IMG/VR virus record: IMGVR_UViG_3300037840_000047
Location: 1 to 58,085 of that record
Reading direction: 5' to 3' (one strand)
Length of the DNA: 58,085 nt
DNA from: a virus
Below the pieces are notes generated by a model. It was given only the letters and a program-made list of their open reading frames with translations. It had not been told where the DNA came from and ran no database searches. This document shows positions 5,082 through 57,336 of the stretch, piece by piece. Within the stretch, counting starts at the first letter, position 1. Each line of letters starts with the position of its first letter. A program made the translations under genes and the position numbers.

Positions 5082-5086
5082 GTCCG

Positions 5087-5542
5087 ATGAAAACATTCAG
5101 GCTAATAAAACCTCATCTGTCCCCAGTGATCATATCTAGATTCTGGGATAAGGTCGAAAAGTCTCAAGGCTGTTGGACGTGGAATGCTTGCCGTCTTCCG
5201 AATGGATACGGGCAAATGAACGTCGGCGGTGGATTGAAGCTGTACGCGCACAGAATATCCTATGTTCTGGTGAATGGAGAAATCCCAGAGGGAAAGGACT
5301 TAGATCACCTGTGTAGAAATAGGGCCTGCGTAAATCCAATCCACCTGGAGGCTGTGAGCAGGAAAGAAAATCTATTGCGCGGTGAGACAATCCCCGCAGC
5401 TTTTGCTAATCGAGATTCATGTGTCAACGGTCATCTCTTGACTGGGAGCAACGTCTATTCTGCTGGCGGATACCGTTCATGTAGAGAGTGCCATAAACTA
5501 CGCGAGCAAAAGCGCCGCGATAGAATAAAGGCAGCAGCATGA
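5087..5542 (+). CDS. HNH homing endonuclease
   Basis: 151 residues from ATG 5087. The N-terminal half has the GlyCysTrpThrTrp ... AsnGlyTyrGly pattern, followed by the HNH core LeuAspHisLeuCys ... Cys ... AsnProxHisLeuGlu. The C-terminal part adds another zinc-binding set (CysxxxGlyHis ... CysxxCys). This is the standard free-standing phage HNH endonuclease, a selfish DNA cutter that spreads to cognate sites. It separates terminase from the next head gene and ends by ATGA overlap with it. Confidence 0.88.
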   Translation: MKTFRLIKPHLSPVIISRFWDKVEKSQGCWTWNACRLPNGYGQMNVGGGLKLYAHRISYVLVNGEIPEGKDLDHLCRNRACVNPIHLEAVSRKENLLRGETIPAAFANRDSCVNGHLLTGSNVYSAGGYRSCRECHKLREQKRRDRIKAAA

Positions 5543-27656: not shown

Positions 27657-28259
27657 ATGCCAGCATTCATCGACATCACGGGAAGGCAGTTTGGTCGCTG
27701 GACGGTCATTAGTAAGTCCATCTTTACGAAGGGTGATCGCCAGTGGTCGTGCCGATGTCAGTGCGGAACCATTAGAGACGTATCGGGAAGGAACTTGCGT
27801 AATGGTTTAAGTAACAGTTGCGGCTGCTGGAATCTGGAACAGATTAGAAGCCCGAAGAAGCATGGCATGAGCAAGACGCGACAGTTTCGTAATTGGTGCC
27901 AAATGATTTCTCGCTGCAATAACCCAAACAATCCTCGCTTTGAGCGATACGGTGGGCGGGGAATCAAGGTATGCCATCGCTGGCTGGCTTCCTTCTCCGA
28001 CTTTATGCAAGACATGGGTCCACGCCCCAAGGGGTTGACGATTGAGCGCATTGATAATGACGGGGATTACGAGCCGGGAAACTGCCGCTGGGCTACGAAT
28101 AGAGAGCAGCAAAGAAATAAGCGTAGCAACCGCATAATATTTGGGTTTGGTAAATCTCAGTTGCTCGTAGATTGGGCGCGAGATTTACACATGAGCGCAT
28201 CCCTGCTTCACTATCATCTCAAACGCGGTAGAACGGTGGAGCAAATCGCCAATGCCTAA
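27657..28259 (+). CDS. HNH-type homing endonuclease
   Basis: 200 residues. N-terminal part has three Cys in a CysxCysGly pattern, then CysGlyCys, a zinc cluster. The C-terminal catalytic region contains LeuThrIleGluArgIleAspAsnAspGlyAspTyr and GluProGlyAsnCysArgTrpAlaThr, hallmarks of phage HNH nucleases. A helix near the end looks like a DNA-binding HTH. Free-standing between two virion genes with short overlaps. Confidence 0.8.
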   Translation: MPAFIDITGRQFGRWTVISKSIFTKGDRQWSCRCQCGTIRDVSGRNLRNGLSNSCGCWNLEQIRSPKKHGMSKTRQFRNWCQMISRCNNPNNPRFERYGGRGIKVCHRWLASFSDFMQDMGPRPKGLTIERIDNDGDYEPGNCRWATNREQQRNKRSNRIIFGFGKSQLLVDWARDLHMSASLLHYHLKRGRTVEQIANA

Positions 28260-34456: not shown

Positions 34457-36699
34457 TGGCCGACCTCACTCCAGACCAAGCGATTGAGAAGCTGAAGGCG
34501 CTGCCCGAAGATAAGCAACGTGCAGTCCTGATGAAACTCTCGCCCGATGAGCGTAAGGGCATCCTTGGAAAACTGACCTCCACGCGGCCTCCTGTTGGCC
34601 AGCCACTACCGGGTTCTCCCAAGGGAACCGTGTACACCTTCCGGCAACCCAAGGAGTTCATGCAGCAAGCCTCCCAAGAATTAGGCGAGGCTACGATGGA
34701 GCAATTCGAGAAATCGGCTTCCAGTAAAACGCTTGCAGGACAACTGGGCCACGGGGCGCTCGCTACAATCCCCGCCATCGGTGAAGTCGCTACCAAGCTA
34801 GCAGCGGGTCTTATGGACTGGAGAACTGCCGCTGGCCTAATTATGAGCAAGGTGCATCCCGCGATTGGTGCTGCGTTCTTCGGTGCTCAAGGGGTTCGGG
34901 GTGCAAAAGAGGCTTACGACAAGATACAGAATGGCGATGTAACGCCTGAGAACGTGCAGAACTTCCTCTTGGGGCTTTCTACGGCTGCTGCGTCTGGAGC
35001 GGCTTCAGGCGCAGAGGGTGGGTTGAGCAAGGTAGGCTCACTGCGTCAAAAGGCATCCGCAATGATGGAAAAGGGTCGTCAGGGCGCTCAGATGGTTGCT
35101 GGAGCTACGCCAGAACGTACTACCGCCCCAATGGTAGAAGAATACAAAACGAAAAGCGCCGACGCCCAACAAAGACAGGTCGAAGAAAACCAGCAAACCG
35201 ATGCGGCGAATCGGCAAAAAGTTGAGCAATACCATGATGCCAAGCGGACGGCCTTTCAGAAAGGCGAGGAACAAAACGCAGAGCACGCCTTGTCGAAAGA
35301 AGAAATAACTCAAGCCAATTCTCAAGAGCAGGCAAGAGTCAGAGAGATCAACGATGCGGCACAGGGCCAGCAGGGACGGCGTTCGGAATTAGCTCAATCC
35401 ATAAAACAAGGCAGCCAGCAGCTCGGTGAGGGAATTAAGCATAAGGTTGCCGAGGTCCGAGCACAAGACAATGCAAACTATGCTGCCGTCAGGGAAAAGT
35501 TAGCTAGCGACGAGGGTGTACCGATGTCGGAGCTTGCCCAAGATGCCCGGACCGCAGAGGGAATGCTGAAGGGAACCACGGAGAACATTAAGCAGTTCCG
35601 GGAGCTCATTAAAAAGGCCCCTGAGTCGGAAGGTGTTGAGACCAGCGCTGGATTCGTAAAGCCCGGAGACCCGTTATTCGACCAGCTCCAGAGCGAAGGA
35701 GCTATTGATACAGGGGGAACTATACCTTTCGATGAGTTGCAGGGTTACTCCAGCGAAATCGGCATGAAGTTGGCAAAGGGTGGACTGCCGGGAGACGTTT
35801 ATCAAGCCCTAAAGTATCTCAAGGGAAAGATCGACGCTGCCAAAGTAACCATCGCGGAGCGAAACGGGGCAGGGACAGAACTGAAGAATGCAGACGCATT
35901 TCACTACAACTTTATGGATACGTTTTACGACAAGCCTAGCGCCGTAGCAGCCTCGCTGGATCGAGTCGGAAAATTAGACCCCGAATTCTACGCAGAGCCT
36001 TTTATTACGGGCAAGGCTGGGCAAACTGGCATAGCTAAACTTCAGAGATTCGACCCTAAACTGGCAGAGCTTGCAACGTCACTACGGAAATCGCATGAGG
36101 AATTCTCGGCCCTGCCGAAACAGGCGAAGACCGTGGCACCTAAACTGAAACCAGAACCATCTCCTCCATCGCCTATCGAACCACCGAAAAGGCCGGAACT
36201 TAAAGCGCCAAAGAAGATTGAGCAACCCGCCAAACTTACCATCGAAGACGTTAGAGGCAGGAAAGCGAAAGAAGTAAAGGCTTCCGCTAGGGAAATCGGT
36301 CGCCTCAGTCGGTACGATGCTGCAATCTTAGCTAGTTCCGCAGTCGGCCCCTTTCTTGGTCGCTGGGAAACCCTGCTCATTGACCCTGCATACTTGGTGG
36401 GCAGAAAGGCCATCGGAAGAATGCTAGATCGCCCTGCGGTCCAGCGCTGGCTTTCTGAACCTTCGCCAGAAGACATACGCATCCTCAACAGTTTGCCGCC
36501 TGAAGCCAAGACAGAAGTGCAGGGAGCGATTTCTGATTACGCTGCAAGTCACTCCATAAAAACCCTATCTCCAGAGGCTAGGCGCTTCCTTGGACAGCAG
36601 AACGTTGCCCGTATCCTAGCCGGAGCAGGGACGGGAGCCAACATCCCCCAAACCCCCGGAGAAGCCCGTGAGCGTATGAGGGCTGTCGCACCACAGTGA
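34456..36699 (+). CDS. large internal virion protein
   Basis: 747 residues, predominantly long charged helices. Residues 100-160 are more hydrophobic and Gly/Ala-rich, perhaps membrane-interacting; 230-300 are Gln/Glu/Arg-rich coil; 555-590 are Pro-rich. Near the C-terminus stands AsnIleProGlnThrProGlyGluAlaArg (nt 36640-36675), matching the preceding protein. Start by overlap of one base with the previous stop. Ejection-protein role inferred from size, position and composition. Confidence 0.5.
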   Translation: MADLTPDQAIEKLKALPEDKQRAVLMKLSPDERKGILGKLTSTRPPVGQPLPGSPKGTVYTFRQPKEFMQQASQELGEATMEQFEKSASSKTLAGQLGHGALATIPAIGEVATKLAAGLMDWRTAAGLIMSKVHPAIGAAFFGAQGVRGAKEAYDKIQNGDVTPENVQNFLLGLSTAAASGAASGAEGGLSKVGSLRQKASAMMEKGRQGAQMVAGATPERTTAPMVEEYKTKSADAQQRQVEENQQTDAANRQKVEQYHDAKRTAFQKGEEQNAEHALSKEEITQANSQEQARVREINDAAQGQQGRRSELAQSIKQGSQQLGEGIKHKVAEVRAQDNANYAAVREKLASDEGVPMSELAQDARTAEGMLKGTTENIKQFRELIKKAPESEGVETSAGFVKPGDPLFDQLQSEGAIDTGGTIPFDELQGYSSEIGMKLAKGGLPGDVYQALKYLKGKIDAAKVTIAERNGAGTELKNADAFHYNFMDTFYDKPSAVAASLDRVGKLDPEFYAEPFITGKAGQTGIAKLQRFDPKLAELATSLRKSHEEFSALPKQAKTVAPKLKPEPSPPSPIEPPKRPELKAPKKIEQPAKLTIEDVRGRKAKEVKASAREIGRLSRYDAAILASSAVGPFLGRWETLLIDPAYLVGRKAIGRMLDRPAVQRWLSEPSPEDIRILNSLPPEAKTEVQGAISDYAASHSIKTLSPEARRFLGQQNVARILAGAGTGANIPQTPGEARERMRAVAPQ

Positions 36700-37628
36700 A
36701 TCCCGAATCGCTCTCCTATTTCGAGACATGTCAGAGAAAAGGCTATTGGGGGCAATTCTGGGAGGCCCAGAGGCTTTCGGGTAAGGAAATGGCCGTCCGA
36801 GCCATCCGTGAGGCTGTAATCGCCCCAGAAGCTCAGGAAGCACCGTTTGGTGAGGTTGCTGGCAGCGCCGTACTCCAGTTGGCAGAGGATAGAGGTCTGG
36901 CCGTAGAGGGCAGGACCGTATACGCCGAAGTCATACATTATGCTGCCCTGAGCGATATTCTAGTTTCAGCCATCCGCAAGCCTAAAGACCGGCCATGGAT
37001 AGCGCCCCCAGAATTCCCTCCGGACTGCTTCCTTTCGTCAGACGGAAACTATCTCAGGCGCATCGTTCTAGTAAGCCACTGGACCGACAGCCGAAAGGAA
37101 AGCGAGGCACGTAGCTGGAAGTCCCTGGGTCTCATGGCGGAACACAACCTGCCCATGCAACTTGCAGTTCTCGTAATCGGGCAGAATAGGGCAGGGAAAC
37201 GACGTGGACCGTGGACCCAAGGCTACTTGCATCCTTCTAATCATCAACTTAGGTTCCGACGCAGAAAGGGTGGATTCCGCTCAGAGGGCAACCGCTTCAA
37301 GGAAACCTGGGAGCAAATTTACAGGGAGGACCATGCCGAAATCAGCAGAGAGACTTGGCTTCAGTCGATGCTTACCGACGATGTGTTGCCGGAGGTCTGC
37401 TTCTCCATAGAATTGCCCGTTCTTGAACCTCCTCATCGTCAAAGAATTCTTCAAATGGCGGAGCATAAATTAGATGCTCTGCACTCTCTGAAGGAGAAGC
37501 CGGATGCCCAACTATCGACGTGTGACTGGCCTGTAGCATGTCAGTTCAAGAAGTGCTGTCATGTTGAACCGGAGCGGGAGCCGTCTGAGAAACTTGGCTT
37601 TGTTCGCATCCAAACGTCTCAGGGCTGA
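36696..37628 (+). CDS. Cas4-like PD-(D/E)XK nuclease with Cys cluster
   Basis: 310 residues from GTG 36696, overlapping the previous stop. N-terminus SerTyrPheGluThrCysGlnArgLysGlyTyrTrp fits the first Cys plus Arg/Lys of RecB/Cas4-type nucleases, and the C-terminal ThrCysAspTrp ... CysGlnPheLysLysCysCys gives the other Cys of an iron-sulphur cluster. A conserved Gln/Lys region lies between. Role: recombination or DNA-end processing. The 3-prime 83 bases overlap, antisense, the glycosyltransferase at 37546. Confidence 0.65.
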   Translation: MNPESLSYFETCQRKGYWGQFWEAQRLSGKEMAVRAIREAVIAPEAQEAPFGEVAGSAVLQLAEDRGLAVEGRTVYAEVIHYAALSDILVSAIRKPKDRPWIAPPEFPPDCFLSSDGNYLRRIVLVSHWTDSRKESEARSWKSLGLMAEHNLPMQLAVLVIGQNRAGKRRGPWTQGYLHPSNHQLRFRRRKGGFRSEGNRFKETWEQIYREDHAEISRETWLQSMLTDDVLPEVCFSIELPVLEPPHRQRILQMAEHKLDALHSLKEKPDAQLSTCDWPVACQFKKCCHVEPEREPSEKLGFVRIQTSQG

Positions 37629-38319
37629 AAAGGGCTTCGTAATCTGCACCTCCGGCACTCACTCCCCACTTCTGTCTCAAGTACGCTCTATCCATGTTGG
37701 CCTGTGCCTCGATCTCCATGCGCTCCTCGGGAGAAGCTAGGCGGATGGTAGAACTGCGTTCATGGTAATACGGAACTGACGCTTTGCAAAGTCGCACGCC
37801 GCGACGATGAGCGCGGATATGGAAATCTTGGTCGCTGGAATAGTGTTTCATTCCTTCGTCAAATGGTCCGACCTGTTGCCAGCATTCGCGGGTGATCAGG
37901 AAGCAGGAGAAGTCGGGGTTGTAAGTGATCGGGTCAACCTCGGGCGTTTGCATCGCCTGTTCCATATTGTCCACCGCCACGCCGGTTACAAAGGGCAGGC
38001 GATACTTCTGGCTTGTTTCCAAAAGAATGCGGTAGGTCCACGGGGCAAGTACGGTGTCGTTGCCGATTACCAGAACGTGTTCAACACTGCCCCACTTCAT
38101 CAATTCAGACAAGCCTTGGTTCCACCCCCTACTGACACCAGCATTGTCTGGCGATGCGTCGAAAAGCGTAAGGTTGCCATTGGCCCAATCCACTGTGCCA
38201 TCCGTGGACCCATTATCAATGATCTGAGTGCAAGTGAAAACGTCTTGCTTTCGCGTCGATTCTAGGCACCGCTTCGTCAGTTCCAAGTTGTTGTGTGTAA
38301 GGATGAGTACCGGATTCAC
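37546..38319 (-). CDS. GT2-type glycosyltransferase
   Basis: 257 residues from GTG 38319 (AGGAGG site). N-terminus ValLeuIleLeuThrHisAsnAsnLeuGluLeuThrLys and the AspAsnGlySerThrAspGlyThr loop mark a GT-A family 2 enzyme; IleGlyAsnAspThrVal takes the place of the DxD. A later AspPheSerCysPheLeuIle strand and SerSerAspGlnAspPhe follow. Transfers a sugar from an NDP-sugar to an unknown acceptor. Last gene of the leftward cassette. Confidence 0.8.
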   Translation of the reverse strand: MNPVLILTHNNLELTKRCLESTRKQDVFTCTQIIDNGSTDGTVDWANGNLTLFDASPDNAGVSRGWNQGLSELMKWGSVEHVLVIGNDTVLAPWTYRILLETSQKYRLPFVTGVAVDNMEQAMQTPEVDPITYNPDFSCFLITRECWQQVGPFDEGMKHYSSDQDFHIRAHRRGVRLCKASVPYYHERSSTIRLASPEERMEIEAQANMDRAYLRQKWGVSAGGADYEALFSPETFGCEQSQVSQTAPAPVQHDSTS

Positions 38320-38843
38320 CGTACCGCCTCCTGAGCGAGAATCCACCAGTCCCTAGCCGCGTTCATTCCCGGAACGTTCCTCCAGTCAAACGGTTTGTAC
38401 TCGGCCCATGCAGGAATGGCATCGTAAAGGGCGTTTCGGAGCGAACTAGGGGTGTAATGCCACCTGTGTCTGTCAGTTTCAAGACCTTGGAAGGCTCCCA
38501 TTAGGTTTACCATGTAGATGTAGTCGTTAATCTTCCCTTCAAGCCAGTGAATCGCTAGAGCACGCACGTCAGGAATGAATATCAACAGAGAGCCACCCGG
38601 CTTGAGTAGCTGGTAGCACGGCTGAAACGGGAATTCTCCTAGCCCGAAATGTTCAACGATATGGTGACACACCACGTAGTCGGCATTGCCGTGGCCAAAC
38701 TTGCCGGGAAGGTCTTTAATGTCGCAGATCACGTCCGGAACTTGATCGGGAGGGCGGCTCACGATGTCTACGTTAACCCACTCAAAACCTTGCACCGACT
38801 CAAATCTTCGTTGGCCGCTGCCCAAGTTGTAACCAAGTTTCAT
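38316..38843 (-). CDS. SAM-dependent methyltransferase (type 11-like)
   Basis: 175 residues. AsnLeuGlySerGlyGlnArg (motif I), then AspIleLysAspLeuPro, HisHisIleValGluHisPhe and LeuLeuLysProGlyGlySerLeu show a class I Rossmann methyltransferase. The preference for an O-methyl or similar target on a glycan fits the neighbours. Overlaps both neighbours by 4 bases, so it is co-translated with the flanking glycosyltransferase genes. Confidence 0.8.
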   Translation of the reverse strand: MKLGYNLGSGQRRFESVQGFEWVNVDIVSRPPDQVPDVICDIKDLPGKFGHGNADYVVCHHIVEHFGLGEFPFQPCYQLLKPGGSLLIFIPDVRALAIHWLEGKINDYIYMVNLMGAFQGLETDRHRWHYTPSSLRNALYDAIPAWAEYKPFDWRNVPGMNAARDWWILAQEAVR

Positions 38844-39520
38844 CTGAACAATCTCCTGTACATCTCCTTTTGAGGGCCATCGTTACTAGGGTTGCCATTG
38901 AAGTGAAGCGAGCAGGGCACGATTCCGGTCTTGATGTTCTTCACGCGCTGCCCGAATACGTCGATAGGGTCACCGCCGCTCAAGCTCTGGAATATCTGCG
39001 AATCTGCATCGAGGGCGAAATCTAGTTCCCCGCGCATCTTGGCCCACATCCACCATGCCTGCGAATTGTCGGCTCCAGGATGAATGCCACGGTACTTGTC
39101 GAGCAAATGCTTGAGGCACAACTGCGTGTATTCCCATGTGCCGATGTACTGCCCTGCATTGATGTAGCCCAAGGGGACGAAGTATTCCACGATCTCAGGT
39201 TCAGGAGGCCAGCAGTACCGCTCAGTAGACATAACGAGATCAGACTTGAAGGCCGTGAACTTCTCCAGAATCTCTTTCTCGCCTGCCAGAAACAGCACAT
39301 CTCGGCAGTCTGTGATCAGAACGTAATCTGCCAACTTTGTGCGCTGCACCATTAACTCGTAGAGCCTCAGGACTTGGGCATCTGCCCCGTGAGGGATGAA
39401 GGGCCACTGAATACCGTAGAGTTCCACGTTTAAGCCGTTGGCCCTAGCACTTTGCACCATGAGTTCAGCAGGCTCGGCGGTTTGGTAGAAACACGGACTA
39501 AGGACGATGAGATCACTCAA
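38840..39520 (-). CDS. PLOD-like glycosyltransferase
   Basis: 226 residues from TTG 39520, preceded by GGAGAG; an ATG at 39628 would read inside the upstream gene. The core LeuIleThrAspCysArgAspValLeuPhe with SerThrGluArgTyrCysTrpPro, later AspSerGlnIlePheGlnSerLeu and SerLeuHisPheAsnGly, resembles the glycosyltransferase domain of procollagen glycosyltransferase/PLOD proteins. A second copy of this type is at 40170. Substrate unknown. Confidence 0.7.
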   Translation of the reverse strand: MSDLIVLSPCFYQTAEPAELMVQSARANGLNVELYGIQWPFIPHGADAQVLRLYELMVQRTKLADYVLITDCRDVLFLAGEKEILEKFTAFKSDLVMSTERYCWPPEPEIVEYFVPLGYINAGQYIGTWEYTQLCLKHLLDKYRGIHPGADNSQAWWMWAKMRGELDFALDADSQIFQSLSGGDPIDVFGQRVKNIKTGIVPCSLHFNGNPSNDGPQKEMYRRLFR

Positions 39521-40091
39521 GGGGTGCTCTCCAGACCGTCGTTCTCCCGGCACGGTCAAGCAGTGACCATCCTTGGCTTTGGACGTACTTGTCGATGCAG
39601 TAAGCCACGGGTTCACAATCGCTGTCATGGAAGGCAGCTATGCCTCCGGGGACGACGTGCGGGAGCCAGTGCCTACAGTCTGGCTCGATACCAGGTAGAT
39701 CGTGCCAGCCGTCGATATGTAGGAAGTGCACTGCCTGCGTCCACGGCAACTCTGCTTGCTCGCTGGTCATCTTGTGCAGGGTGAAAGGTATGTCATTGAA
39801 GTGCTCAAGAATCATGGCGACGAACGTTCCGGTTGCACGCGCCTGATCCCATGACCAGTTATCAACCAGGTGAACCCTGAGGGACAATGTGTGCTGTAAC
39901 TGAAGGTAGAGTGAGGCAGACCGTCCGCCGTACACCCCGATCTCTACCACTGTAGAGCCTTCGCGGAGTTCAACAAGACGCATTGCCAGAGCGCGTAATT
40001 CATTCGTGGTGTAGGTGCAGTTCTGGTGATCTTCTGTGCCCTGACCTTCGATCTTGGCGGCAAAGGCTACGAGTTCATCGACGCTTTTCAT
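39513..40091 (-). CDS. SAM-dependent methyltransferase (type 24-like)
   Basis: 192 residues from ATG 40091 (GTG 40094 possible). ValValGluIleGlyValTyrGlyGlyArgSerAla is a Rossmann motif I; LeuHisIleAspGlyTrpHis and ValValProGlyGlyIle follow. This is the pattern of Methyltransf_24/CmcI-type O-methyltransferases often found in glycan and antibiotic gene clusters. Tightly coupled with its neighbours. Confidence 0.75.
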   Translation of the reverse strand: MKSVDELVAFAAKIEGQGTEDHQNCTYTTNELRALAMRLVELREGSTVVEIGVYGGRSASLYLQLQHTLSLRVHLVDNWSWDQARATGTFVAMILEHFNDIPFTLHKMTSEQAELPWTQAVHFLHIDGWHDLPGIEPDCRHWLPHVVPGGIAAFHDSDCEPVAYCIDKYVQSQGWSLLDRAGRTTVWRAPLE

Positions 40092-40173
40092 CACACCCCC
40101 AGAACACCCAGCCGATGAGTAACCCGCCGCTGAAGCAGGCCAGATTAAACAACACTTCCTTGATTTCCGTCAT
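40075..40173 (-). CDS. 32-residue membrane peptide
   Basis: The ATG at 40173 overlaps the stop of the preceding glycosyltransferase gene (ATGA) and follows GGGAGGCGAG, a good ribosome site. A 20-residue hydrophobic helix (LeuPheAsnLeuAlaCysPheSerGlyGlyLeuLeuIleGlyTrp) is followed by a charged tail. A tiny membrane protein within the glycan cassette, function unknown; possibly a scaffold that brings enzymes to the membrane. Confidence 0.5.
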   Translation of the reverse strand: MTEIKEVLFNLACFSGGLLIGWVFWGCDEKRR

Positions 40174-40949
40174 CTCGCCTCCCACGGCGGTCTTTCGGTG
40201 TATCCGCACGCCTTCCAGAACGGCTCCAGCCTTTCCCACTTCCCGTACAAAGCATGGCTATAACCGCCGTTGAAGTGCAAGATGCAGGGGTATTGCCCCG
40301 TTAGTTTGTTATAAATCCGCTGGTCCCGTAACTCGATCATGTCACCGAACATCTCTCCGTGGTCGGGTTTCGACCCGGCATTCATAAAGATTGAGCACTC
40401 GGTATCCAGTTTTAATTCTCCCGGATGGTGACGGATGAACTCACACCACCAGCCCGGGTCATCGTCTGGGAGTTCGTTATGCTCGTAGTCATTCCCGAGT
40501 TTGTAATTGTCTTGCATCCACCCTAATGCATCTGCCAAAGCCTTCGCCTCGCACAGTTGGCCGGGGGTGCCAATGTATCGAAATGGCTTCGTCATGTCCC
40601 AAGGCAGCCCTTCGTACCATGCCGCATAAGTTCCGAACACGTCGCATTGGGCCGAGAGCATCAGCGGCGGAGCGCCGTAGGCGTTGTACTTCTCTGCGAT
40701 CTCATCAGGCCCACCAAGGAACCAAGCGTCTCTCGCATCGGTATACATAATGTGCGACGTAGGGCAGGAAAGCGCCTCCTCTCGGAGCTTGTATATCTTG
40801 AGATGAGTCCAGCCGTTATAGACCTCATTCATAGCGTAAGGCCGGACGCTAAGACCGTGCTTCGCGGCGCTGGTGTCCAACATCCAAATAGGCTCTCGCG
40901 TCTCGAAAGCACACGGCACGGCTACGGTAATATCTTTTCCTGAAATCAT
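40170..40949 (-). CDS. PLOD-like glycosyltransferase, second copy
   Basis: 259 residues. HisIleMetTyrThrAspAlaArgAspAlaTrpPhe (the DxD-containing strand), CysSerIlePheMetAsnAlaGly and CysIleLeuHisPheAsnGlyGly are matches to the product at 38840, though the two differ widely elsewhere. Probably a paralogue adding a different residue to the same product. Starts by ATGA overlap with the small basic gene upstream. Confidence 0.7.
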   Translation of the reverse strand: MISGKDITVAVPCAFETREPIWMLDTSAAKHGLSVRPYAMNEVYNGWTHLKIYKLREEALSCPTSHIMYTDARDAWFLGGPDEIAEKYNAYGAPPLMLSAQCDVFGTYAAWYEGLPWDMTKPFRYIGTPGQLCEAKALADALGWMQDNYKLGNDYEHNELPDDDPGWWCEFIRHHPGELKLDTECSIFMNAGSKPDHGEMFGDMIELRDQRIYNKLTGQYPCILHFNGGYSHALYGKWERLEPFWKACGYTERPPWEAR

Positions 40950-41113
40950 TGGAACAGCCCCAGTTTGGCGAACTCACGAGCCGTTAGCTCTGCGGCACCC
41001 TTGTCCAAGCCAGAAATCAACTTCCTTCGGTTTTCGGTTTGTTTTTTACAGAGAGATAGATATTTACTGCGCGCTTTGATACGAGCCTTCTTCGCCTTCC
41101 CTTTTCTACTCAC
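40946..41113 (-). CDS. 55-residue basic protein
   Basis: GTG 41113 lies inside the end of the upstream gene and the stop overlaps the next ATG (ATGA). The first half is Lys/Arg-rich with SerArgLysGlyLysAlaLysLys; the second is a helical stretch ending LeuGlyLeuPheGln. Fifth of the tiny basic proteins in this genome, here inside the leftward cassette. Confidence 0.5.
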   Translation of the reverse strand: MSRKGKAKKARIKARSKYLSLCKKQTENRRKLISGLDKGAAELTAREFAKLGLFQ

Positions 41114-41774
41114 AAATCACCCCCGGAGGACACTGTTGCTTAACCAATTCGTATCCCGGTATCTTCTGCCCAAAACTGTTTGTGATGCCCGTATTGACTA
41201 CCAAGGCCGGAGAGACTACGCCTAGCTTGTAGCCATCGGCCTTGAGTTTGTTCGTGAAATCGACATCTTCTGATTGGCAGACCTTGCCGGGAGGAGTCTG
41301 ACAAAAGGGGCCGTACTTATCCCAAGTCTCCCAAGACATCAGCATGGACTGGAGGGCCAAAGCGTTGACTTCCCGCACTTCGTATGCACCGTACACGGGC
41401 ACCGATGCCCCCGGCTGGTGATAGGGATGGTTGTATGCCCCGATTGCGCGATAACCGAAGTCGTAAGCCTTCTCGTAGCACTTGATTAGGATTGGCAGCC
41501 ACGTCGGGTAAAAGTACACGTCGTTGTCGGAAAGGTATAGGTAGTCTCCGCGCCCGTGGCGCAATTCACTTTCTCTAATGACCTGATTCCTAGCGGCTCC
41601 TGTTCCCTTGGATACCGTGTTCCTGATGGCGCTCTCGTCCATATAGTACGGTTCAGATGCATCGTCCAGAATGGTCACGTGGCGACTCTCGGGAGTGATC
41701 GAAGATCGCAGGGAGTCGATTGCCTGCTGCGTTAACCTGCGCCGGTTTCGCACCAGCATTGTGATATTAACCAC
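41106..41774 (-). CDS. GT2-type glycosyltransferase
   Basis: 222 residues from GTG 41774 with a GAGAGG site. IleThrMetLeuValArgAsn, then IleLeuAspAspAlaSer, then LeuTyrLeuSerAspAsnAspValTyrPhe (DxD) show a family 2 fold. SerGluAspValAspPheThr fits the ED-type acceptor loop. Sugar donor and acceptor are unknown. Confidence 0.8.
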   Translation of the reverse strand: MVNITMLVRNRRRLTQQAIDSLRSSITPESRHVTILDDASEPYYMDESAIRNTVSKGTGAARNQVIRESELRHGRGDYLYLSDNDVYFYPTWLPILIKCYEKAYDFGYRAIGAYNHPYHQPGASVPVYGAYEVREVNALALQSMLMSWETWDKYGPFCQTPPGKVCQSEDVDFTNKLKADGYKLGVVSPALVVNTGITNSFGQKIPGYELVKQQCPPGVICE

Positions 41775-41783
41775 GGGAACCTC

Positions 41784-41945
41784 TCATCGCGCCGGTATTT
41801 CGATTACGTTGTGTTTCCAGAAGTTCCACCAACGTCGCCCCTCGCAGGTGTATTGGTAGAAGAAATTGTAATCAAGTGGGTTATCCATCCCCATCCACAA
41901 CCGCCTACACCGAGTTAGAAGTAATCCACATTTGCAAGTTTTCAC
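41784..41945 (-). CDS. 53-residue Cys-containing protein
   Basis: GTG 41945 follows AAGGAG at 7 bases and overlaps the previous stop (GTGA). N-terminus LysThrCysLysCysGly gives a CxCG pair, with two later Cys and several Trp/Arg: a zinc-ribbon-like miniature protein. Being between the radical-SAM gene and a glycosyltransferase gene, it might assist one of them. No family recognised. Confidence 0.5.
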   Translation of the reverse strand: MKTCKCGLLLTRCRRLWMGMDNPLDYNFFYQYTCEGRRWWNFWKHNVIEIPAR

Positions 41946-43348
41946 TTCGTGCTCCTTAGGATGTGTTGCGGTAACTGCATTCCCATGCTGTGTTCATAGT
42001 TCAAAGCCGCCGCGCCGTGCGGGTACGGAATACCCAGCGTGGCCCTGACCTCTGATTCCAGATCGTCCCGCAATTCAACTAGCCGTTCCCGGTCAAGATA
42101 ATCAGTCCACACGAAGGACGTATATTCTCCGCTCTTGCCCTTGTAGTACCCGTGGCCTTCATTGAAGTTCAAATCCTCTGAGTACAGGGCATCACCATTG
42201 ATCTCGTAGCGGTACACGGGGCCAGAGAGATGCACGGCGGAGTCGTAATATGGAGTTCCGGGATAAACGGTAATCACCGTGCAGTCGAAGTCATCCGGCT
42301 TTTCTTGCAGGAGCCATTGCTTTGTGGCTTCAATCGTTTCTTCCGACTCTCCGGGATGGCCGATGCTCATCAAAGCTTTGACTTTTAAGCCGTACTTGTG
42401 TGCGGTTCGCAGCATGGCCGTATTGTCTTCCAGAGTCGCCTTTTTGTTAATATTCCGCAGGATGCGGGGGTGAGCAGATTCAAACCCGCACAGCAGCCAG
42501 CGGAATCCAGCGGCGTACATCGCTTCCGCCTGCTCCTCGGTAAACAGTTCCGCTTTGACGAATCCACGAAGCCTCCAATCTATGCCGGTCTGTGCAACAT
42601 CTCGCATGAGCGGCACTAAGCCCTTGTTTACGTTCAATTCATCGTCATAGAACATCATGCCCTCGACTCCATAGTGTTCGTGCAGGGATTTCATTTCCGC
42701 TACAACATCAACAGCAGTTCGTGTCCTGATGCGTCGTAACATCGGAGAAAACCGTCCTCCGCAAAAACCACACTCAAAGGGGCATCCGAGCTGGGAAACC
42801 ATCGTAAGAGCGCGTTTTCCATCGACGGAGTAATGGTAGCTGTCCATGTCAACGAGGTGTCGTGCTGGCCAGGGGCTTGCATTGAATTCCTCCGACGTAT
42901 TCCATAGTGGCGATTTCGGGTCATCCGCATCCACCAACCCAAACCACTTCACTGCCTGAAAGATTGCCTTTTCTCCATCTCCTGCAACTACGCAGTCAAA
43001 GGATTCTAGTAGATGCGCCAAGGCTGCTCTGGCTCTCTTGCTGCCACGTTTCGCGGCGGCATTGACAAGCGTGGCATGAGGTCCGCCAAGGACCGTTCTG
43101 CCCTGTAGCACGTTAGAAATGGCAACGGCCATCGGCATCTGTGGCGTCGTTGCCGTAATTGCGAAGATGTTCGCGCCCTGATAGTCCTGTGCGGCTTCCA
43201 CATAATTGGTCAACCCCGTTAAATCTAGGTGGTCCACTTCGTATCCGGCTTGCTCACACGCTGCGGCCACCTTGAGTATCCCTAGGCTTACGAAAACCCT
43301 TTGGTCTAGCAAGAATTCGGAAGGAGGTGTTATAAAACATATCCTCAT
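41942..43348 (-). CDS. radical-SAM protein with B12-binding-like domain
   Basis: 468 residues. Residues 1-135 resemble a cobalamin-binding fold (PheIleThrProProSer start, ValLeuGlyGlyProHisAlaThr at 86-93, ValAlaGlyAspGlyGluLysAla) although the usual base-off His motif is not seen. GlyCysProPheGluCysGlyPheCysGlyGly at 188-198 is the CxxxCxxC cluster motif. Further radical-SAM strands follow (MetSerIleGlyHisProGlyGluSer). These enzymes do difficult C-methylation or rearrangements, for example on sugars or lipids. Substrate unknown. Confidence 0.85.
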   Translation of the reverse strand: MRICFITPPSEFLLDQRVFVSLGILKVAAACEQAGYEVDHLDLTGLTNYVEAAQDYQGANIFAITATTPQMPMAVAISNVLQGRTVLGGPHATLVNAAAKRGSKRARAALAHLLESFDCVVAGDGEKAIFQAVKWFGLVDADDPKSPLWNTSEEFNASPWPARHLVDMDSYHYSVDGKRALTMVSQLGCPFECGFCGGRFSPMLRRIRTRTAVDVVAEMKSLHEHYGVEGMMFYDDELNVNKGLVPLMRDVAQTGIDWRLRGFVKAELFTEEQAEAMYAAGFRWLLCGFESAHPRILRNINKKATLEDNTAMLRTAHKYGLKVKALMSIGHPGESEETIEATKQWLLQEKPDDFDCTVITVYPGTPYYDSAVHLSGPVYRYEINGDALYSEDLNFNEGHGYYKGKSGEYTSFVWTDYLDRERLVELRDDLESEVRATLGIPYPHGAAALNYEHSMGMQLPQHILRSTK

Positions 43349-43833
43349 GCAGTTCTCGCAAATTCCCCTCGCAGGAGCTTCGCCGCCTGACAGTATGCAG
43401 CATAAGCATCCTCCTCAGTCGAGAAGCAGCCTAGAGTTTTCGGGATTCCTTCTATGGCTATCTGGGCGCACCACCTCGCTCTCGCCTTGTGCCAGCACAC
43501 CCCTTTGTATCGAGATCGACCACGCCTATTAGGTCTTCGGTTGGCCATATTTTGTGCTCTAGTCGCTACTCTAAGGTTATCTCTACGATTGTCCAATGTA
43601 GCTGAAGGCTCTTTATGATCTCCTTGAAGCGGGTTCCCGAATTCCAAACCGAGAATCAGTCGGTGCATCCATATCGAATGGCGTTTCCCGTTGACCGTCT
43701 CGGAATGTCTAACCGCGTAAAATGTCTGCGTTCCCTCGCACCAATGGGCGTTCCACTTCCATTGATTGAGCCATTCGTAGTCTTCGTCGTCAACTAAAGC
43801 TACCTGTCCTCTGGTTAGGTTAATTGTCTTCAT
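43345..43833 (-). CDS. AP2/HNH homing endonuclease
   Basis: 162 residues. The catalytic half has HisArgLeuIleLeuGly ... GlyAspHisLys ... ArgArgAspAsnLeuArgValAlaThr, the HNH motif; the C-terminal half contains TyrLysGlyValCysTrp ... ArgTrpCysAlaGln ... LeuGlyCysPhe, an AP2-type DNA-binding domain. Classic phage homing endonuclease, sited between two enzyme genes of the cassette. Confidence 0.85.
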   Translation of the reverse strand: MKTINLTRGQVALVDDEDYEWLNQWKWNAHWCEGTQTFYAVRHSETVNGKRHSIWMHRLILGLEFGNPLQGDHKEPSATLDNRRDNLRVATRAQNMANRRPNRRGRSRYKGVCWHKARARWCAQIAIEGIPKTLGCFSTEEDAYAAYCQAAKLLRGEFARTA

Positions 43834-44513
43834 TCCTTCACTTTATACGGCATTACATCTCTATTGTGTTCGTAAAAATAACTGTGGGCTAGGGCGTAGT
43901 CCTCAGTAGGAGATATAAACCCAGAGCTTCTCCCCCCAAGGTGTTCGCAGTCAACCCCGACCAATCGTATTCGGTAACCCTGTCGGCGCGCCTCACAACA
44001 GAGCCACTCGCTATACATGAAGTATCCGTATGGTTTACCAACGGGCCATCCGGTGACCCGCCTGAGTATATGTCGCCGTATGAATAGGGCAAATCCATCC
44101 AATATCGCAACATCGCGTTCTCCCGTTAATCGTGCCCCATGCTTCTCTGCCGAGAGCATGTTGCTCATAAAGTTCTGCCGCGCCAAGTTGGGCAAATAGT
44201 AGGGCACCGTGTAGAGATCAGGCCGCCCGTGGCCCAGTGCCCCGCCAAACCCCACAACGCCGACCTGCGGGTCTTCAAACTGCTGCAAAACTCTTTCATC
44301 CCAGCCTGACTCGTAAATCTCAACATCGTCGTGCACATAGGCTAGGATCGGCTCCGTCGATAGCTCGTAGAGCGCCTGAAACGCTGGCATCACATCCTGC
44401 CCAATGACGACATACGACGGGTAGACTCTACTTGCTGTGTCTTTCCAGCTCTGGAAGCACTCCCGCCAGCCCTCCCAGTTCCTTGTCGCTATGCAATACG
44501 CCATCTGGCCCAT
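43830..44513 (-). CDS. GT-A-type glycosyltransferase
   Basis: 227 residues. TyrValHisAspAspValGluIle is a DxD-like metal-binding motif; CysIleAlaThrArgAsnTrpGlu opens the nucleotide-binding fold; AlaIleLeuAspGlyPheAlaLeu and TyrPheMetTyrSerGluTrpLeu follow. Family 2-like. The start lies inside the end of the next upstream gene (86-base overlap); ATG 44504 is a slightly shorter alternative. Confidence 0.7.
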   Translation of the reverse strand: MGQMAYCIATRNWEGWRECFQSWKDTASRVYPSYVVIGQDVMPAFQALYELSTEPILAYVHDDVEIYESGWDERVLQQFEDPQVGVVGFGGALGHGRPDLYTVPYYLPNLARQNFMSNMLSAEKHGARLTGERDVAILDGFALFIRRHILRRVTGWPVGKPYGYFMYSEWLCCEARRQGYRIRLVGVDCEHLGGRSSGFISPTEDYALAHSYFYEHNRDVMPYKVKE

Positions 44514-45711
44514 CGGCTTTTACCCCCTTTCTCAGCCATTCTTCCCAGCGAGGCCAAAGTGTAGGCCCATTCCAGTCAATAGACTCTGGGCATACCGTGT
44601 GGTGGTTATTTTGCCTTCGTGCGACTGATGCGAAATCCTTGGCAGACATTACGGGCCTCGTGCAGTTGTAAGGGCCTTCAATTCGGTAGGCGACGGGTTT
44701 TACGAGAAGATCGGCAGGGATGAACTCGCCGCCTCCGTAATCGGGGGCCACGGTAGGCACACCACAAGCCAGAGACTCCGCCGCACTAAATCCAAAGCCT
44801 TCACCAAGGCCGATTGCCAATGTGCAATCACAAGCCGAGTAGCACCATGCCATCTGCTCATCTGTGAACTCCGCAATGGTTACGATGGCGTTGTCCTGCA
44901 ACCCGAAGTCGTTGATCAGGGCAGGGATGGACCAATGGCGTTCCATTTCGTCCGTGTGAATCCAGACCCAGGTATTACGTTCTTTTGCCAACTCTGCGAC
45001 CGTTGAGAGGCCAAGTCCCCAGTCTTTCCTGATTTGATTCGTGGCCACGATACCAACAAAGAAAGCGTCGTCAGGGATAGACACAAACTGCCCCATCTTC
45101 TTGCCCTTGACGTACTTCGCATTTATTCTCTGCCCGAAACTGTGCCGAGCTTGAACTCGGGGCCTAGGATAGAAGACAGAAGTGTCGATGCCGTGCGGCA
45201 CCCAGTCTACGTCCATCGCAGGATGCAGCGTTCGCCTCAGAATGTCATGTGCCCATTGAGAATAAGCCAGAGCACGATCAAAGCCTTCGATTGTGTTCTT
45301 CAGGATGCCCGTTAATTTGTCGTGTGGCCCCGTGGCATCAATCGGTAGATAGGCGTGTTTCTCAAACGGCTGGGAGATCAGGAACTTCTTCAGGCGAGGG
45401 TCAGGGCACGTTTCAGGATGTGTTAGCCAACGGAGCCGAGATGAGTCCCAGATTGTGAGCAACGTTCCTTTGCGATCTCCAGCGAAGTCTCGCCACACCT
45501 CGGGCAAGTTGTACACGCACCAATCATGCATCTCCGTTGTGTATTGAGGAAAACCTAGAGCGCGGGAATAAGAACCTCCGTAACCGATAGTGCCCACCTC
45601 AAAAACATCAGACAGGTTGGCATGGATGCGAGTCGATATGTCTCTTGTTATCCGCCCCAGTCCAGTCGATGCGGTTGGTGCATCCGAAAGCAAAAGAATA
45701 GGTATAGGCAT
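44428..45711 (-). CDS. GT4-type (GT-B) glycosyltransferase
   Basis: 427 residues from ATG 45711. ThrAlaSerThrGlyLeuGlyArgIle near the start is the acceptor-side loop; AspTrpValProHisGlyIleAspThr and GlyGluGlyPheGlyPheSerAlaAlaGluSerLeuAlaCysGly carry the E-x7-E donor motif of GT-B family 4 enzymes. Retaining transfer from an NDP-sugar. First glycosyltransferase in transcription order of the cassette. Confidence 0.85.
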   Translation of the reverse strand: MPIPILLLSDAPTASTGLGRITRDISTRIHANLSDVFEVGTIGYGGSYSRALGFPQYTTEMHDWCVYNLPEVWRDFAGDRKGTLLTIWDSSRLRWLTHPETCPDPRLKKFLISQPFEKHAYLPIDATGPHDKLTGILKNTIEGFDRALAYSQWAHDILRRTLHPAMDVDWVPHGIDTSVFYPRPRVQARHSFGQRINAKYVKGKKMGQFVSIPDDAFFVGIVATNQIRKDWGLGLSTVAELAKERNTWVWIHTDEMERHWSIPALINDFGLQDNAIVTIAEFTDEQMAWCYSACDCTLAIGLGEGFGFSAAESLACGVPTVAPDYGGGEFIPADLLVKPVAYRIEGPYNCTRPVMSAKDFASVARRQNNHHTVCPESIDWNGPTLWPRWEEWLRKGVKADGPDGVLHSDKELGGLAGVLPELERHSK

Positions 45712-45713: not shown

Positions 45714-46226
45714 TTAGGTAATCCTCACGTGAACCCACAGAGCGCCTGTTCGAATCCGAGATACTTGCGCTTGGCTAATACCAAACTCGTCAGCGATAAT
45801 GCTCTGACTGACTCCGCGCCTGTTCCTGATTGCGCGAACTTGGGCAATGGTCAATTTGGCAGTGTAGTGACACTCGCCCTCCCTAGGTCTCCAACTCCGC
45901 CCCTTTATAGATCGATCACGATTGTTCTGTTCGGTGGTTCCCTCGTAAAGATGCGAGTATCTAACGCACGCTGGGTGGTCGCATTTGTGAAGGCAACACG
46001 GTTCTGGCCATCGACCGTGAGCCAGAAAGAAGGCGAGGCGATGAACGCGAACTGGGCGCGATGGACGGGGGAACGCATAAACCTCGCCATATCCGTCTTT
46101 GTCCGTGAATCCAGTCCACAACCAGCAGCGAGTGCCATCTATTTCAGGGTGGGTCGCAATGGCTGAAGCGGAAGGCCGTGGACCTTCCTTGTCAACACGC
46201 TTCCATAGACGCTGTTCTAGAGTCAT
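45714..46226 (-). CDS. HNH homing endonuclease with HTH
   Basis: 170 residues. N-terminal part has CysTrpLeuTrpThrGly ... GlyTyrGly ... ArgValHisArgLeuAlaPhe ... CysAspHisProAlaCysValArgTyrSerHisLeu, the HNH core. The C-terminal helix-turn-helix (ValSerGlnSerIleIleAlaAspGluPheGlyIleSerGlnAlaGlnVal) would provide DNA specificity. Free-standing at the cassette entry. Confidence 0.85.
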   Translation of the reverse strand: MTLEQRLWKRVDKEGPRPSASAIATHPEIDGTRCWLWTGFTDKDGYGEVYAFPRPSRPVRVHRLAFFLAHGRWPEPCCLHKCDHPACVRYSHLYEGTTEQNNRDRSIKGRSWRPREGECHYTAKLTIAQVRAIRNRRGVSQSIIADEFGISQAQVSRIRTGALWVHVRIT

Positions 46227-46615
46227 TCCCTCGTAAGCCTTTCCCCTTCAATCTCTGGAAGTAAATCGTCCTCGCTGGCAATTTTCACTGGTACGGCCTT
46301 TGCGTCAAACGGTATGCTGCCAATCCCGGTTAAGTCTTGGCGCGGCAGCAACTTTGCAATCTCGGATGGTATAGCATTCGTTGGCCCGTCAACGATGGCG
46401 GTCACGGCCTTGCGAATCTCCTCCACCTTGCCGACCGAAACCTCTTCCCCTAGCTGTTGCTGCAACACTCGAATGGTAGCCTCTAGCCTCGGTATCTCGG
46501 CATTCAGTCTGTCTACGGTATGCACGGCAGTGTCGCGCTCTGCCGTGGCCTGCCCATGTCGGGCGAGTGCCGCATCTAGTGCCACCGAGAAACTGTCTTT
46601 CTTTCGTCTTGGCAT
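46223..46615 (-). CDS. coiled-coil hypothetical protein
   Basis: 130 residues: basic start (ProArgArgLysLys), a helical coiled coil at 20-70 (LeuAsnAlaGluIleProArgLeuGluAlaThrIleArgValLeu), then a short acidic tail. ATGA overlap with the next gene. No family recognised. Confidence 0.55.
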   Translation of the reverse strand: MPRRKKDSFSVALDAALARHGQATAERDTAVHTVDRLNAEIPRLEATIRVLQQQLGEEVSVGKVEEIRKAVTAIVDGPTNAIPSEIAKLLPRQDLTGIGSIPFDAKAVPVKIASEDDLLPEIEGERLTRE

Positions 46616-46971: not shown

Positions 46972-47658
46972 TCATTTCAGACCTCCCCACTGTTCTGCCA
47001 TTGCGTCTGCGATGCCCTGATAGGTCCGGCTGCGATTTTTCCAGCGTTCCGGGCCGGGCGGCATCCTGTGAATACGCTCCCACTGGTCTAACTGAGGCCC
47101 CTTGAGGACTCTGGTGGTGCGCCCGGTTAGGAAGTGAGTCGAATTATCATGCTTACCTTTCTTGCTCAGGTGTATCGAACCGTCAGCCCTAATCGCCCAC
47201 TCTGGAACCACGATGTCAGTTGGCTCTAGTATTCTTAGCCCCTTGAGCCAGATGCAAGTTGATTTCGTCTCTGCGTGCCCGAACATCCACGGCTGGATAA
47301 TTTGATCCGGCTTGCGCCACTTCGAACTGAGGACTCCAATGGGATTCTCGATGGCCACTCTAGGTACATATGATTTAGCAAGCGCTACCACGAATACGAC
47401 TGCCTCGGCCTGTTCCACGACTTTCTTACGAAACCATCTTGCGCCGCTGGATGCTAAATGCGTGCATGGGGGATGCGCGATCATCAGGTCGAACCACCCA
47501 TATACGTCGCCGCGATTGAGAACATCCATGACATCGGCCTCAAAGTGCTGGCCAGGAAGCTCGCTCGGCAGCAAATCACACGACCACGCATCGTGCCCTC
47601 TACGCCGGAACGCTTCCCGCACCACGCCGGAAAATTCGCACGCCACTAAGACTCGCAT
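46972..47658 (-). CDS. phage DNA-methyltransferase-like protein
   Basis: 228 residues from ATG 47658. The opening (ArgValLeuValAlaCysGluPheSerGlyValVal), then TrpSerCysAspLeuLeu, then MetIleAlaHisProProCysThr is the motif set of a phage family usually called DNA cytosine methyltransferase; the ProProCys lies where C5 methylases have their catalytic loop. Probably modifies DNA to protect against host restriction, but the C-terminal target-recognition part is short, so the activity is uncertain. Confidence 0.65.
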   Translation of the reverse strand: MRVLVACEFSGVVREAFRRRGHDAWSCDLLPSELPGQHFEADVMDVLNRGDVYGWFDLMIAHPPCTHLASSGARWFRKKVVEQAEAVVFVVALAKSYVPRVAIENPIGVLSSKWRKPDQIIQPWMFGHAETKSTCIWLKGLRILEPTDIVVPEWAIRADGSIHLSKKGKHDNSTHFLTGRTTRVLKGPQLDQWERIHRMPPGPERWKNRSRTYQGIADAMAEQWGGLK

Positions 47659-47698
47659 TGGCTTCCACTCATCAGGGTAAGAGAGAAGAGAAGAGATT

Positions 47699-48211
47699 TC
47701 ATCGCCCACCTCCATCGTTTTCTGGTAATGCCGAATAAAAAAGAAGCGGGGTATCTGTGTATCGTTCCCTGACTGGGTGTGCAGGATTGCCCTTGGCGGT
47801 GTGTCGAATGCAAAGTAGTTCACTATGGTGCCGCAACATCTGAATTACATCTTGGTCTCTATGGGTGGCGTACTCGGGCATTCGGTCGCAGTTGTCACCC
47901 CACGCGCACACGATGGCTTTGGCGGCTTTCGCTTCCCGGTCAATATGTGACGTATTGTCCTCGCCGACCGCCATGTGCCAACCGCCACTGGTATTCAAAA
48001 GAGCTATCAAGTCCTTTGGCTGCGTGGCGCGGTAGGCGAACAGATTCGTCACGACCAGCCCCGAGAAGCCCCACCGCTTCGCAAATCCCACGCAGCGCCG
48101 AATCGTCGCATCATCAAACACGTCATCCGCCGTCGAAGGATTGAGCATAATGAAATTAACGATTCCGCCCTCGCCCATCCAACTCCGCCGCAACACGTAA
48201 CGATGATTCAT
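47699..48211 (-). CDS. DUF1643 family protein
   Basis: 170 residues with ValAsnPheIleMetLeuAsnProSerThrAla, then AlaTrpGlyAspAsnCys, a pattern of DUF1643 proteins, which are common in phages and of unknown biochemistry. Start ATG 48211 follows GGGAGG. Placed next to the methyltransferase-like gene, so it may belong to DNA modification or protection. Confidence 0.75.
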   Translation of the reverse strand: MNHRYVLRRSWMGEGGIVNFIMLNPSTADDVFDDATIRRCVGFAKRWGFSGLVVTNLFAYRATQPKDLIALLNTSGGWHMAVGEDNTSHIDREAKAAKAIVCAWGDNCDRMPEYATHRDQDVIQMLRHHSELLCIRHTAKGNPAHPVRERYTDTPLLFYSALPENDGGGR

Positions 48212-55936: not shown

Positions 55937-56566
55937 ATGAAGCGTGCTCTGGTAATCGTTCTCGCCCTATGCTCGACAGTTTGCTTTGGGCAGGTAGTGG
56001 CCTCGCCTCAGTACACTTTGAACATCAACTTCTTCGGAAGTGGCGTGTATGGCACCACGACCGCCGTCAACAACGTCTTCGGGTATCAGTTGACCACGAA
56101 TGTACAACTGGTGGCAGACCTGCTTGCGGCCCCTGGTGGCGGAGTGAACGATTATGAGGGCGGAGCTGCTTACAACCTCTGCGGCATCAAAGGCTTGGAA
56201 AACGCGTTAGCTTTGACTTCCCTGAATTGCGGCAAGATTGAGCCATTTTTCTCCGTCACTGGCGGGGAAGGCCGAGTGCAACAGGGCACTTCTCCCGTCC
56301 AGACTGCCCCTGCATTCATGGCGAAGGTCGGAATCAATATGCCCACCGCCTCAGGAACTTACTCAATCCCCCTCATGGCAGGCTATGGGTACTTTGGGCC
56401 TTCGGTAGTTGGGCAGTCAAATAAGGGATTTTTCTTCTATTCAGGCATCACGTTTGGTGGTGGAACGAGCGCTTCTGCAACGCAGGCGAAGATTGCCAGA
56501 ATGAAGCTCTCGGATGCCCGTAAGATGAAACGCCTGCAAGCGAAAATGGCAAAGGCACAGCAATGA
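55937..56566 (+). CDS. secreted outer-membrane barrel-like protein
   Basis: 209 residues from ATG 55937 (GGAGG). Signal peptide 1-19 (PheGlyGln cleavage). The mature part has alternating aromatic/Gly strands (TyrThrLeuAsnIleAsnPhePheGlySerGly; AlaTyrAsnLeuCysGly) like a small porin-type barrel, and a basic helical tail. A TTGACA at 55895-55900 lies just upstream. Could modify the host surface (superinfection exclusion) or serve as a lysis or adhesion factor. Confidence 0.5.
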   Translation: MKRALVIVLALCSTVCFGQVVASPQYTLNINFFGSGVYGTTTAVNNVFGYQLTTNVQLVADLLAAPGGGVNDYEGGAAYNLCGIKGLENALALTSLNCGKIEPFFSVTGGEGRVQQGTSPVQTAPAFMAKVGINMPTASGTYSIPLMAGYGYFGPSVVGQSNKGFFFYSGITFGGGTSASATQAKIARMKLSDARKMKRLQAKMAKAQQ

Positions 56567-57336
56567 AACGCGCTTACGGCCGCAACATTCCCGCTGCCCT
56601 CCCAGCGCATCGGATGCTCTCGCGCACCGATGTAACGATTCCCCTAAGCGTCGATCTGCGGAAGTTCTGCGGCAACGTGAAAGATCAGGGGCAACTTGGC
56701 TCCTGCACAGGCCATGCTTTCGCCTCGGCAAGCGAGTGGATATGCCGCGCCTATCTAGGAAAACAGCCTACACTCAGCCCTTTGTACGTCTATGCCAAGG
56801 AATTGATTGCAGATGGCGACTTTCCTAACGATAACGGCTCCACAGGCACAACTGGCAGCAACGTGGTCATCGCTAACGGAGCCTGCGAAGATTCCCTGTA
56901 TCCAGATGCCTCACAAACGATTCAGCAACCTACCTCGGAAATGGATGCAAATGCAGCCCAGTACACTCTTGGGGCATATCACGGCCTCGCAGGTTCCAAC
57001 ACTGCCCTCAGCGTGTTAGGCGATGCGACACCGTGGCCTGTGGAAATTGGCTTCACGGTCTACAGTTCATTCGAGAGTGACGAAGTGGCCCAGACGGGTA
57101 TTTACCAACCTGATTCCTCGTCAGAGTCAGTTCTTGGTGGGCATGAAGTCCTGGCCGTGGGCTATGATGTAGGCAGTACACCTGTACTCAGACCGGCAAA
57201 CTGTCCTCCTGCTGTGCTGATTCAAAACTCTTGGGGAGTCTCCTGGGGAATTTCTGGCTATTTCTGGATGGCCTTGCCAGTGCTCGATGCAGCCGACACG
57301 GACCTGAAGATTACCCATAGTGGGAAGCCTTGGTAA
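56563..57336 (+). CDS. papain-like (C1) cysteine protease
   Basis: 257 residues by ATGA overlap with the barrel-like gene. GlnGlyGlnLeuGlySerCysThrGlyHisAlaPheAla places the nucleophile at Cys48, GlyGlyHisGluValLeuAlaVal the base at His194, and GlnAsnSerTrpGlyValSerTrpGly the Asn at 222, in the order of papain enzymes. The propeptide is absent or very short and there is no signal peptide. A predicted active protease, substrates unknown: phage maturation, anti-host or defence-inhibiting roles are possible. Confidence 0.82.
   Translation: MKRAYGRNIPAALPAHRMLSRTDVTIPLSVDLRKFCGNVKDQGQLGSCTGHAFASASEWICRAYLGKQPTLSPLYVYAKELIADGDFPNDNGSTGTTGSNVVIANGACEDSLYPDASQTIQQPTSEMDANAAQYTLGAYHGLAGSNTALSVLGDATPWPVEIGFTVYSSFESDEVAQTGIYQPDSSSESVLGGHEVLAVGYDVGSTPVLRPANCPPAVLIQNSWGVSWGISGYFWMALPVLDAADTDLKITHSGKPW

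Follow-up and report, generated by a model that had tools for sequence, protein, structure and literature searches.

Comparison with described systems

Glycosylated phage particles are known from a few cultured phages, the glycans on chlorovirus particles are made by enzymes that these viruses themselves encode, and serotype-conversion (gtr) cassettes generally include an integral-membrane glycosyltransferase or flippase. In mycobacteriophages, according to PMC12363180 (citing Freeman et al. 2023), phage glycosyltransferases (Che8 gp110, Corndog gp38) are proposed to modify virion proteins, acting on capsid and tail-tube proteins. The cultured Tetrasphaera phage TJE1 groups genes for a nucleotidyl transferase, a nucleotide-sugar epimerase, a methyltransferase and a GT4 glycosyltransferase. 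Here we describe a cassette on the minus strand of a soil phage (positions 37546-45711 of IMG/VR virus record IMGVR_UViG_3300037840_000047) that encodes six glycosyltransferases, two methyltransferases and a radical S-adenosylmethionine (radical-SAM) enzyme. The whole 58,085-nt stretch analysed is referred to as the window.

As in the mycobacteriophages, the glycosyltransferases are phage-encoded, but here six of them are clustered with methyltransferases and a radical-SAM gene. The stretch of TJE1 compared has no annotated radical-SAM or PLOD-type gene, and its GT4 protein is only 25% identical to that of the window. Chlorovirus B736L (PDB 3oy2), from a eukaryotic virus, gives a weak sequence match to the GT4 enzyme (7.6e-5, over 62 residues), while the membrane glycosyltransferase or flippase typical of gtr cassettes has no counterpart in the window cassette by a crude hydropathy scan. 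Clusters of phage glycosyltransferases, including that of TJE1, were already known, whereas a radical-SAM partner in phage glycan synthesis seems to be new; our literature search, outside which most subscription journals lay, returned no paper placing this family of radical-SAM enzymes in a glycan cassette of a phage, and a deoxy or C-methylated sugar was not found described on any phage particle. On balance, we favour the interpretation that the unit is an accessory phage cassette making a methylated, radical-SAM-tailored glycan, most likely on a virion protein. Its assignment as a methylated-glycan cassette is in itself well supported.

Enzymes of the cassette

All nine named enzymes were confirmed by Pfam, PHROGs and NCBIfam (Table 1). 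An initial annotation made from the sequence alone had proposed six glycosyltransferases, two methyltransferases and a radical-SAM protein with a cobalamin-binding-like N-terminus. Homology and structure searches returned these families: GT2-type (GTA, GTB, GTC), GT_PLOD (PLODa, PLODb) and GT4 glycosyltransferases by Pfam, PHROGs and predicted fold, Methyltransf_11 and Methyltransf_24 for MTa and MTb, and a Radical_SAM domain with a B12-binding domain. The minus-strand genes overlap or almost abut, several with an AGGAG/GGAG ribosome-site-like motif upstream. The single tight unit that had been described holds, although an HNH-AP2 gene within it had been missed, and a second HNH-like gene lies just upstream. 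No cassette protein shows a clear membrane span in the hydropathy scan, in agreement with the earlier statement that the named enzymes lack membrane anchors. The tiny membrane and Cys-rich proteins said to be interleaved are a minor feature overall: one small protein has four Cys, another is basic, and a third has a single borderline hydrophobic segment. MTb gave no match against PDB, promoter and terminator scans gave no matches above chance, and a composition test for recent foreign acquisition showed no real difference (G+C 53.2% in the cassette vs 54.3%).

PLODa scores above the GT_PLOD cut-off and PLODb just below it, the latter with an LH3-like fold: its AlphaFold model (predicted local distance difference test, pLDDT, 86) has the LH3 glycosyltransferase domain and mimivirus R699 as top PDB matches. 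Fold and DxxD motif are common to these proteins and both window enzymes, and the motif is invariant across 19 aligned sequences. A pattern scan for PLODb relatives found none, but an iterated profile search did recover some. Unlike in LH3 and R699, the PLOD domains of the window stand alone; the record has no PF13640 hydroxylase and the window no collagen-like repeat, as no run of at least six Gly-X-Y triplets that could mark a collagen-like acceptor occurs in its six frames. The real start of PLODa may be a TTG at 39520. PLOD-type genes lie near the radical-SAM gene in about a dozen further viral loci. Among Nitrospirota loci, such a gene directly follows the radical-SAM gene in L104 and lies near it in L103 and L120.

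The radical-SAM protein carries the canonical CxxxCxxC at residues 189-196, in alignments of 11 and 49 sequences, together with the Radical_SAM domain, and its B12-binding domain (PF02310) scores 39.8 bits against a cut-off of 32.1. For its predicted structure (pLDDT 91), TsrM is the top match when ranked on E-value and AprD4 when ranked on template modelling (TM) score (0.70/0.72), and AprD4 is the top PDB profile match as well (1.4e-21). AprD4 (PDB 6fd2), which takes a hydroxyl off a sugar-like antibiotic precursor (1,2-diol dehydratase), shares the whole fold (TM 0.70) and the B12-like N-terminal domain. The two are, however, 17% identical, AprD4 has a longer spacing in its Cys motif, the AprD4 family model is not reached (69.7 bits, cut-off 500) and no AprD4-like reductase partner was recognised in the cassette. 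Because AprD4 acts on a sugar-like compound, the modelled fold favours a sugar as the substrate of the window enzyme, and its predicted reaction may be either deoxygenation or C-methylation. As AprD4 has a B12-like domain yet is not known to use cobalamin, the domain alone is no proof of cobalamin, and cobalamin use by the window enzyme is putative.

Glycan genes around the radical-SAM family

Profile scans located the radical-SAM family at 119 places in viral genomes and 134 in prokaryotic ones, of which 80 each were listed. After dereplication of the loci, 148 viral and 129 bacterial neighbours were surveyed; the Pfam families seen most often were methyltransferases and glycosyltransferases, the latter being GT4 and GT2, joined in phages by GT_PLOD. 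Glycosyltransferase and Methyltransf_24 matches were counted by hand in the window and nine further virus records that have the gene. Their density in the 10 kb around it is about eight times that in the rest of these ten records (23 vs 9 matches, binomial p ~1e-8), and this clustering of glycan genes is not chance. The family of MTb, Methyltransf_24, adjoins radical-SAM genes in other phages too. As further viral neighbours, G001 has GT11, a NAD-dependent epimerase, UDP-glucose dehydrogenase, a methyltransferase and a Galactosyl_T protein; G007 has a fusion of GT17 and methyltransferase; G008 has GT4 and GT2; and G009 has galactopyranose mutase, a sulfotransferase, a carbamoyltransferase and a DegT aminotransferase. 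Some viral contigs with many metabolic genes, such as G009, may actually be bacterial.

Bacterial loci of the family are rich in GT2, GT4, PMT_2, NTP-transferase and epimerase genes, and the window cassette would offer a substrate clue for this large radical-SAM family of polysaccharide-type loci. In a quick maximum-likelihood tree, 27 rows that are all viral form one group (Shimodaira-Hasegawa-like approximate likelihood ratio test, SH-aLRT, 96), and the window protein is among them; overall the tree mixes viral and bacterial members, and its well-supported branches require 10 changes or more. Perhaps phages widely use radical-SAM sugar tailoring to place a deoxy or C-methylated sugar on virion glycans, a generalisation that we offer tentatively. 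An identical radical-SAM protein is encoded on a contig of an Aurantimonas coralicida metagenome-assembled genome (L142) and on a viral contig (L209), which suggests a prophage or a misbinned contig.

An optional island in a probable acidobacterial phage lineage

Related virus records were retrieved by portal and radical-SAM searches and compared with the window; several are fragments, so absence weighs less than presence. In five of them (G002, G003, G005, G010, G014) cassette genes adjoin the homologue of the late gene at 36696 and run on the strand opposite to it, at the same place as in the window, and G012 has GT4, GTC, GTB, MTb and MTa in window order near its contig end. The radical-SAM gene is missing from G012 and G014, G015-G018 show no GT2, GT4, PLOD or Methyltransf_24 match, and Tunturi_1 has no cassette homologue by tblastn except an HNH protein. 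Throughout the lineage the genes are either grouped at a single place or missing, and the scattering that would have spoken against a common unit was not seen. Because some relatives are without the island and others have it without the radical-SAM gene, sequence comparison indicates that the cassette forms an island that is optional but always sits at the same place next to the late gene, and that within it the radical-SAM gene is in turn an optional module for tailoring. The late gene itself has no Pfam or PHROG match, and its Cys pattern recalls Cas4-like nucleases by eye only. Its possible homology to a Tunturi_1 exonuclease at a similar place gained no support from comparison.

When 50,697 phage records were searched with the portal and a large structural protein, the sole matches were Tunturi_1 and Tunturi_2, phages of Tunturiibacter (27-28% identity), and late-gene order (terminase, portal, capsid and others) is the same in the window and Tunturi_1. 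The Tunturi phages are podoviruses of Acidobacteriota that originate from tundra soil (PMC11924767). The lineage is podovirus-like, with its only cultured relatives infecting the acidobacterium Tunturiibacter, and since protein matches and gene order point to these phages, the host of the window phage is likely a member of the Acidobacteriota. A search of 396 Acidobacteriota genomes with the major capsid protein gave only two weak matches, and the window had no match to cultured phages at the nucleotide level. The cassette occupies a fixed place in a lineage to which the cultured phages Tunturi 1 and 2, both without a cassette, are related, and the target of phage glycan cassettes is therefore testable.

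Possible targets of the proposed glycan

From the enzyme set we infer an order of steps. Soluble PLOD-type, GT2-type and GT4 glycosyltransferases would draw on host nucleotide sugars and assemble, in the cytoplasm, a short chain, which the two methyltransferases would cap or decorate through O- or N-methylation. The radical-SAM enzyme would alter a sugar at an unreactive carbon, either by AprD4-like deoxygenation or by C-methylation, and the chain would most likely be placed on a virion protein, thereby shielding the particle or altering host binding. Three targets had been proposed initially, of which the virion is now favoured, the host surface is possible and DNA is unlikely.

The virion is favoured over the host surface because the islands are without a membrane glycosyltransferase or flippase and because of the mycobacteriophage precedent. 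Several points weigh against it. No acceptor was identified, and the cassette lies on the minus strand, with the virion genes on the opposite one. The bacterial radical-SAM relatives sit in polysaccharide-type loci, which is equally compatible with a role at the host surface. In tblastn against the 50,697 phage records, GT4 and PLODa reached at best 23-29% identity and GTA, GTB and GTC found nothing; none of these five matched a mycobacteriophage, and the search, which covered these five cassette proteins and made no direct comparison with Che8 gp110 or Corndog gp38, gave no homologue of a proven virion glycosyltransferase.

Alternatively, the cassette could modify host surface polysaccharide during infection or lysogeny, with sugars added or methylated on a lipid-linked glycan in the cytoplasm before export, and so block superinfection or change a receptor. 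We consider this less likely, although still plausible because the bacterial radical-SAM context of GT2, GT4, PMT_2, NTP-transferase and epimerase genes is of polysaccharide type, so that such chemistry exists in bacterial polysaccharide; O-antigen-type genes are moreover carried by published viruses (PMC9723712). The lineage islands, however, contain no membrane glycosyltransferase or flippase-like multi-span protein by crude hydropathy, with no clear span in any protein of at least 100 aa in G002, G003, G005, G010, G012 and G014, and none of those window genes that were examined, in a scan that did not cover the window fully, was recognised as an integrase.

A further proposal is that DNA bases are hydroxylated or hydroxymethylated and then glycosylated and methylated as a defence against restriction. 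Phage glycosyltransferases that glycosylate DNA are known (PMC6024577), a nearby gene (46972-47823) matches the PHROG 'DNA methyltransferase' (1.3e-68) with no Pfam match, and two DNA-methylase-like genes lie next to the G014 island. Yet the gene at 46972 is without a homologue in the relatives compared, the thymidylate-synthase-type hydroxymethylase PF00303 is absent from 16 records and the 2-oxoglutarate oxygenase PF13640 was not found in the record, each with a positive control; no TET/JBP protein was found either, a weak negative since no positive control was detected. Because the radical-SAM neighbours are sugar enzymes, as in surface-polysaccharide loci, and a thymidylate-synthase-type hydroxymethylase is lacking, DNA hypermodification is unlikely. 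Least probable is that small molecules or lipids, such as a secreted secondary metabolite, are modified with no glycan chain being made. In its favour, the function-assigned radical-SAM models that give weak scores include RiPP (ribosomally synthesised and post-translationally modified peptide), hopanoid and antibiotic enzymes; against it, all of these models stay below cut-off, and the glycosyltransferase and nucleotide-sugar context is consistent.

Gene content and flanking genes

Table 1 Features of the cassette and its flanks in the window.
Feature	Position	Strand	Evidence
Conserved late gene, convergent anchor, outside cassette	36696..37628	+	Relatives' homologues 38-48% identical, beside island or at empty place
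GTA, GT2-fold glycosyltransferase	37546..38319	-	Pfam Glycos_transf_2 6.6e-6; PHROG galactosyl transferase 1.5e-8; GTG start preceded by AGGAGG
MTa, SAM-dependent methyltransferase	38316..38843	-	Pfam Methyltransf_11 8e-5, above cut-off; kept in G012 and G014 cassettes
PLODa, PLOD-type glycosyltransferase	38840..39628	-	Pfam GT_PLOD 1.3e-15, above cut-off; profile matches LH3, mimivirus R699
MTb, SAM-dependent methyltransferase	39513..40094	-	Pfam Methyltransf_24 2.3e-15
Hydrophobic mini-protein, 32 aa, uncertain	40075..40173	-	Sequence only; one borderline hydrophobic segment, hydropathy just under cut-off; GGAGG upstream
PLODb, second PLOD-type glycosyltransferase	40170..40949	-	GT_PLOD 2.7e-5, just under curated cut-off; predicted fold
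Basic protein, 55 aa	40946..41113	-	Sequence only
GTB, GT2-fold glycosyltransferase	41106..41774	-	Pfam Glycos_transf_2 1.3e-7; G012 and L005 cassette homologues, 49-51% identity
Cys-containing protein, 53 aa, 4 Cys	41784..41945	-	Sequence; good ribosome site AAGGAG
Radical-SAM enzyme, B12-binding-like N-terminal domain	41942..43348	-	Pfam Radical_SAM 6e-23; B12-binding 4.6e-10, above cut-off
HNH-AP2 homing endonuclease, inserted in cassette	43345..43833	-	PHROG HNH endonuclease 2.5e-33
GTC, glycosyltransferase	43830..44513	-	Pfam Glyco_tranf_2_5 1.8e-9; L005 homologue 60% identical
GT4 glycosyltransferase	44428..45711	-	Pfam 3e-8; PHROG 6.8e-24; G012 homologue 68% identical
HNH-like endonuclease, upstream edge of cassette	45714..46226	-	39.9% identity to protein between GT4 and GTC in L005
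130-aa protein, six cassette islands	46223..46615	-	Clusters with G002, G003, G005, G010 and G012 island proteins

The 130-aa protein matches no family above cut-off and shows weak coiled-coil-like Pfam matches only. Genes for HNH-like endonucleases are dispersed in the window (5045-5542, 27657-28259, 43345-43833 and 45714-46226), two of them in or at the cassette, and tblastn matches of the protein at 45714 overlap those of the HNH protein at 5045. The G002 island likewise encodes both an HNH and a NUMOD3 protein, as well as an HNH-AP2 homologue. Such endonucleases may help to transfer cassette genes among phages. Elsewhere in the window, the gene at 56563-57336 encodes a cysteine protease of the papain family (Peptidase_C1, 1.9e-14), of which G002 carries a homologue.

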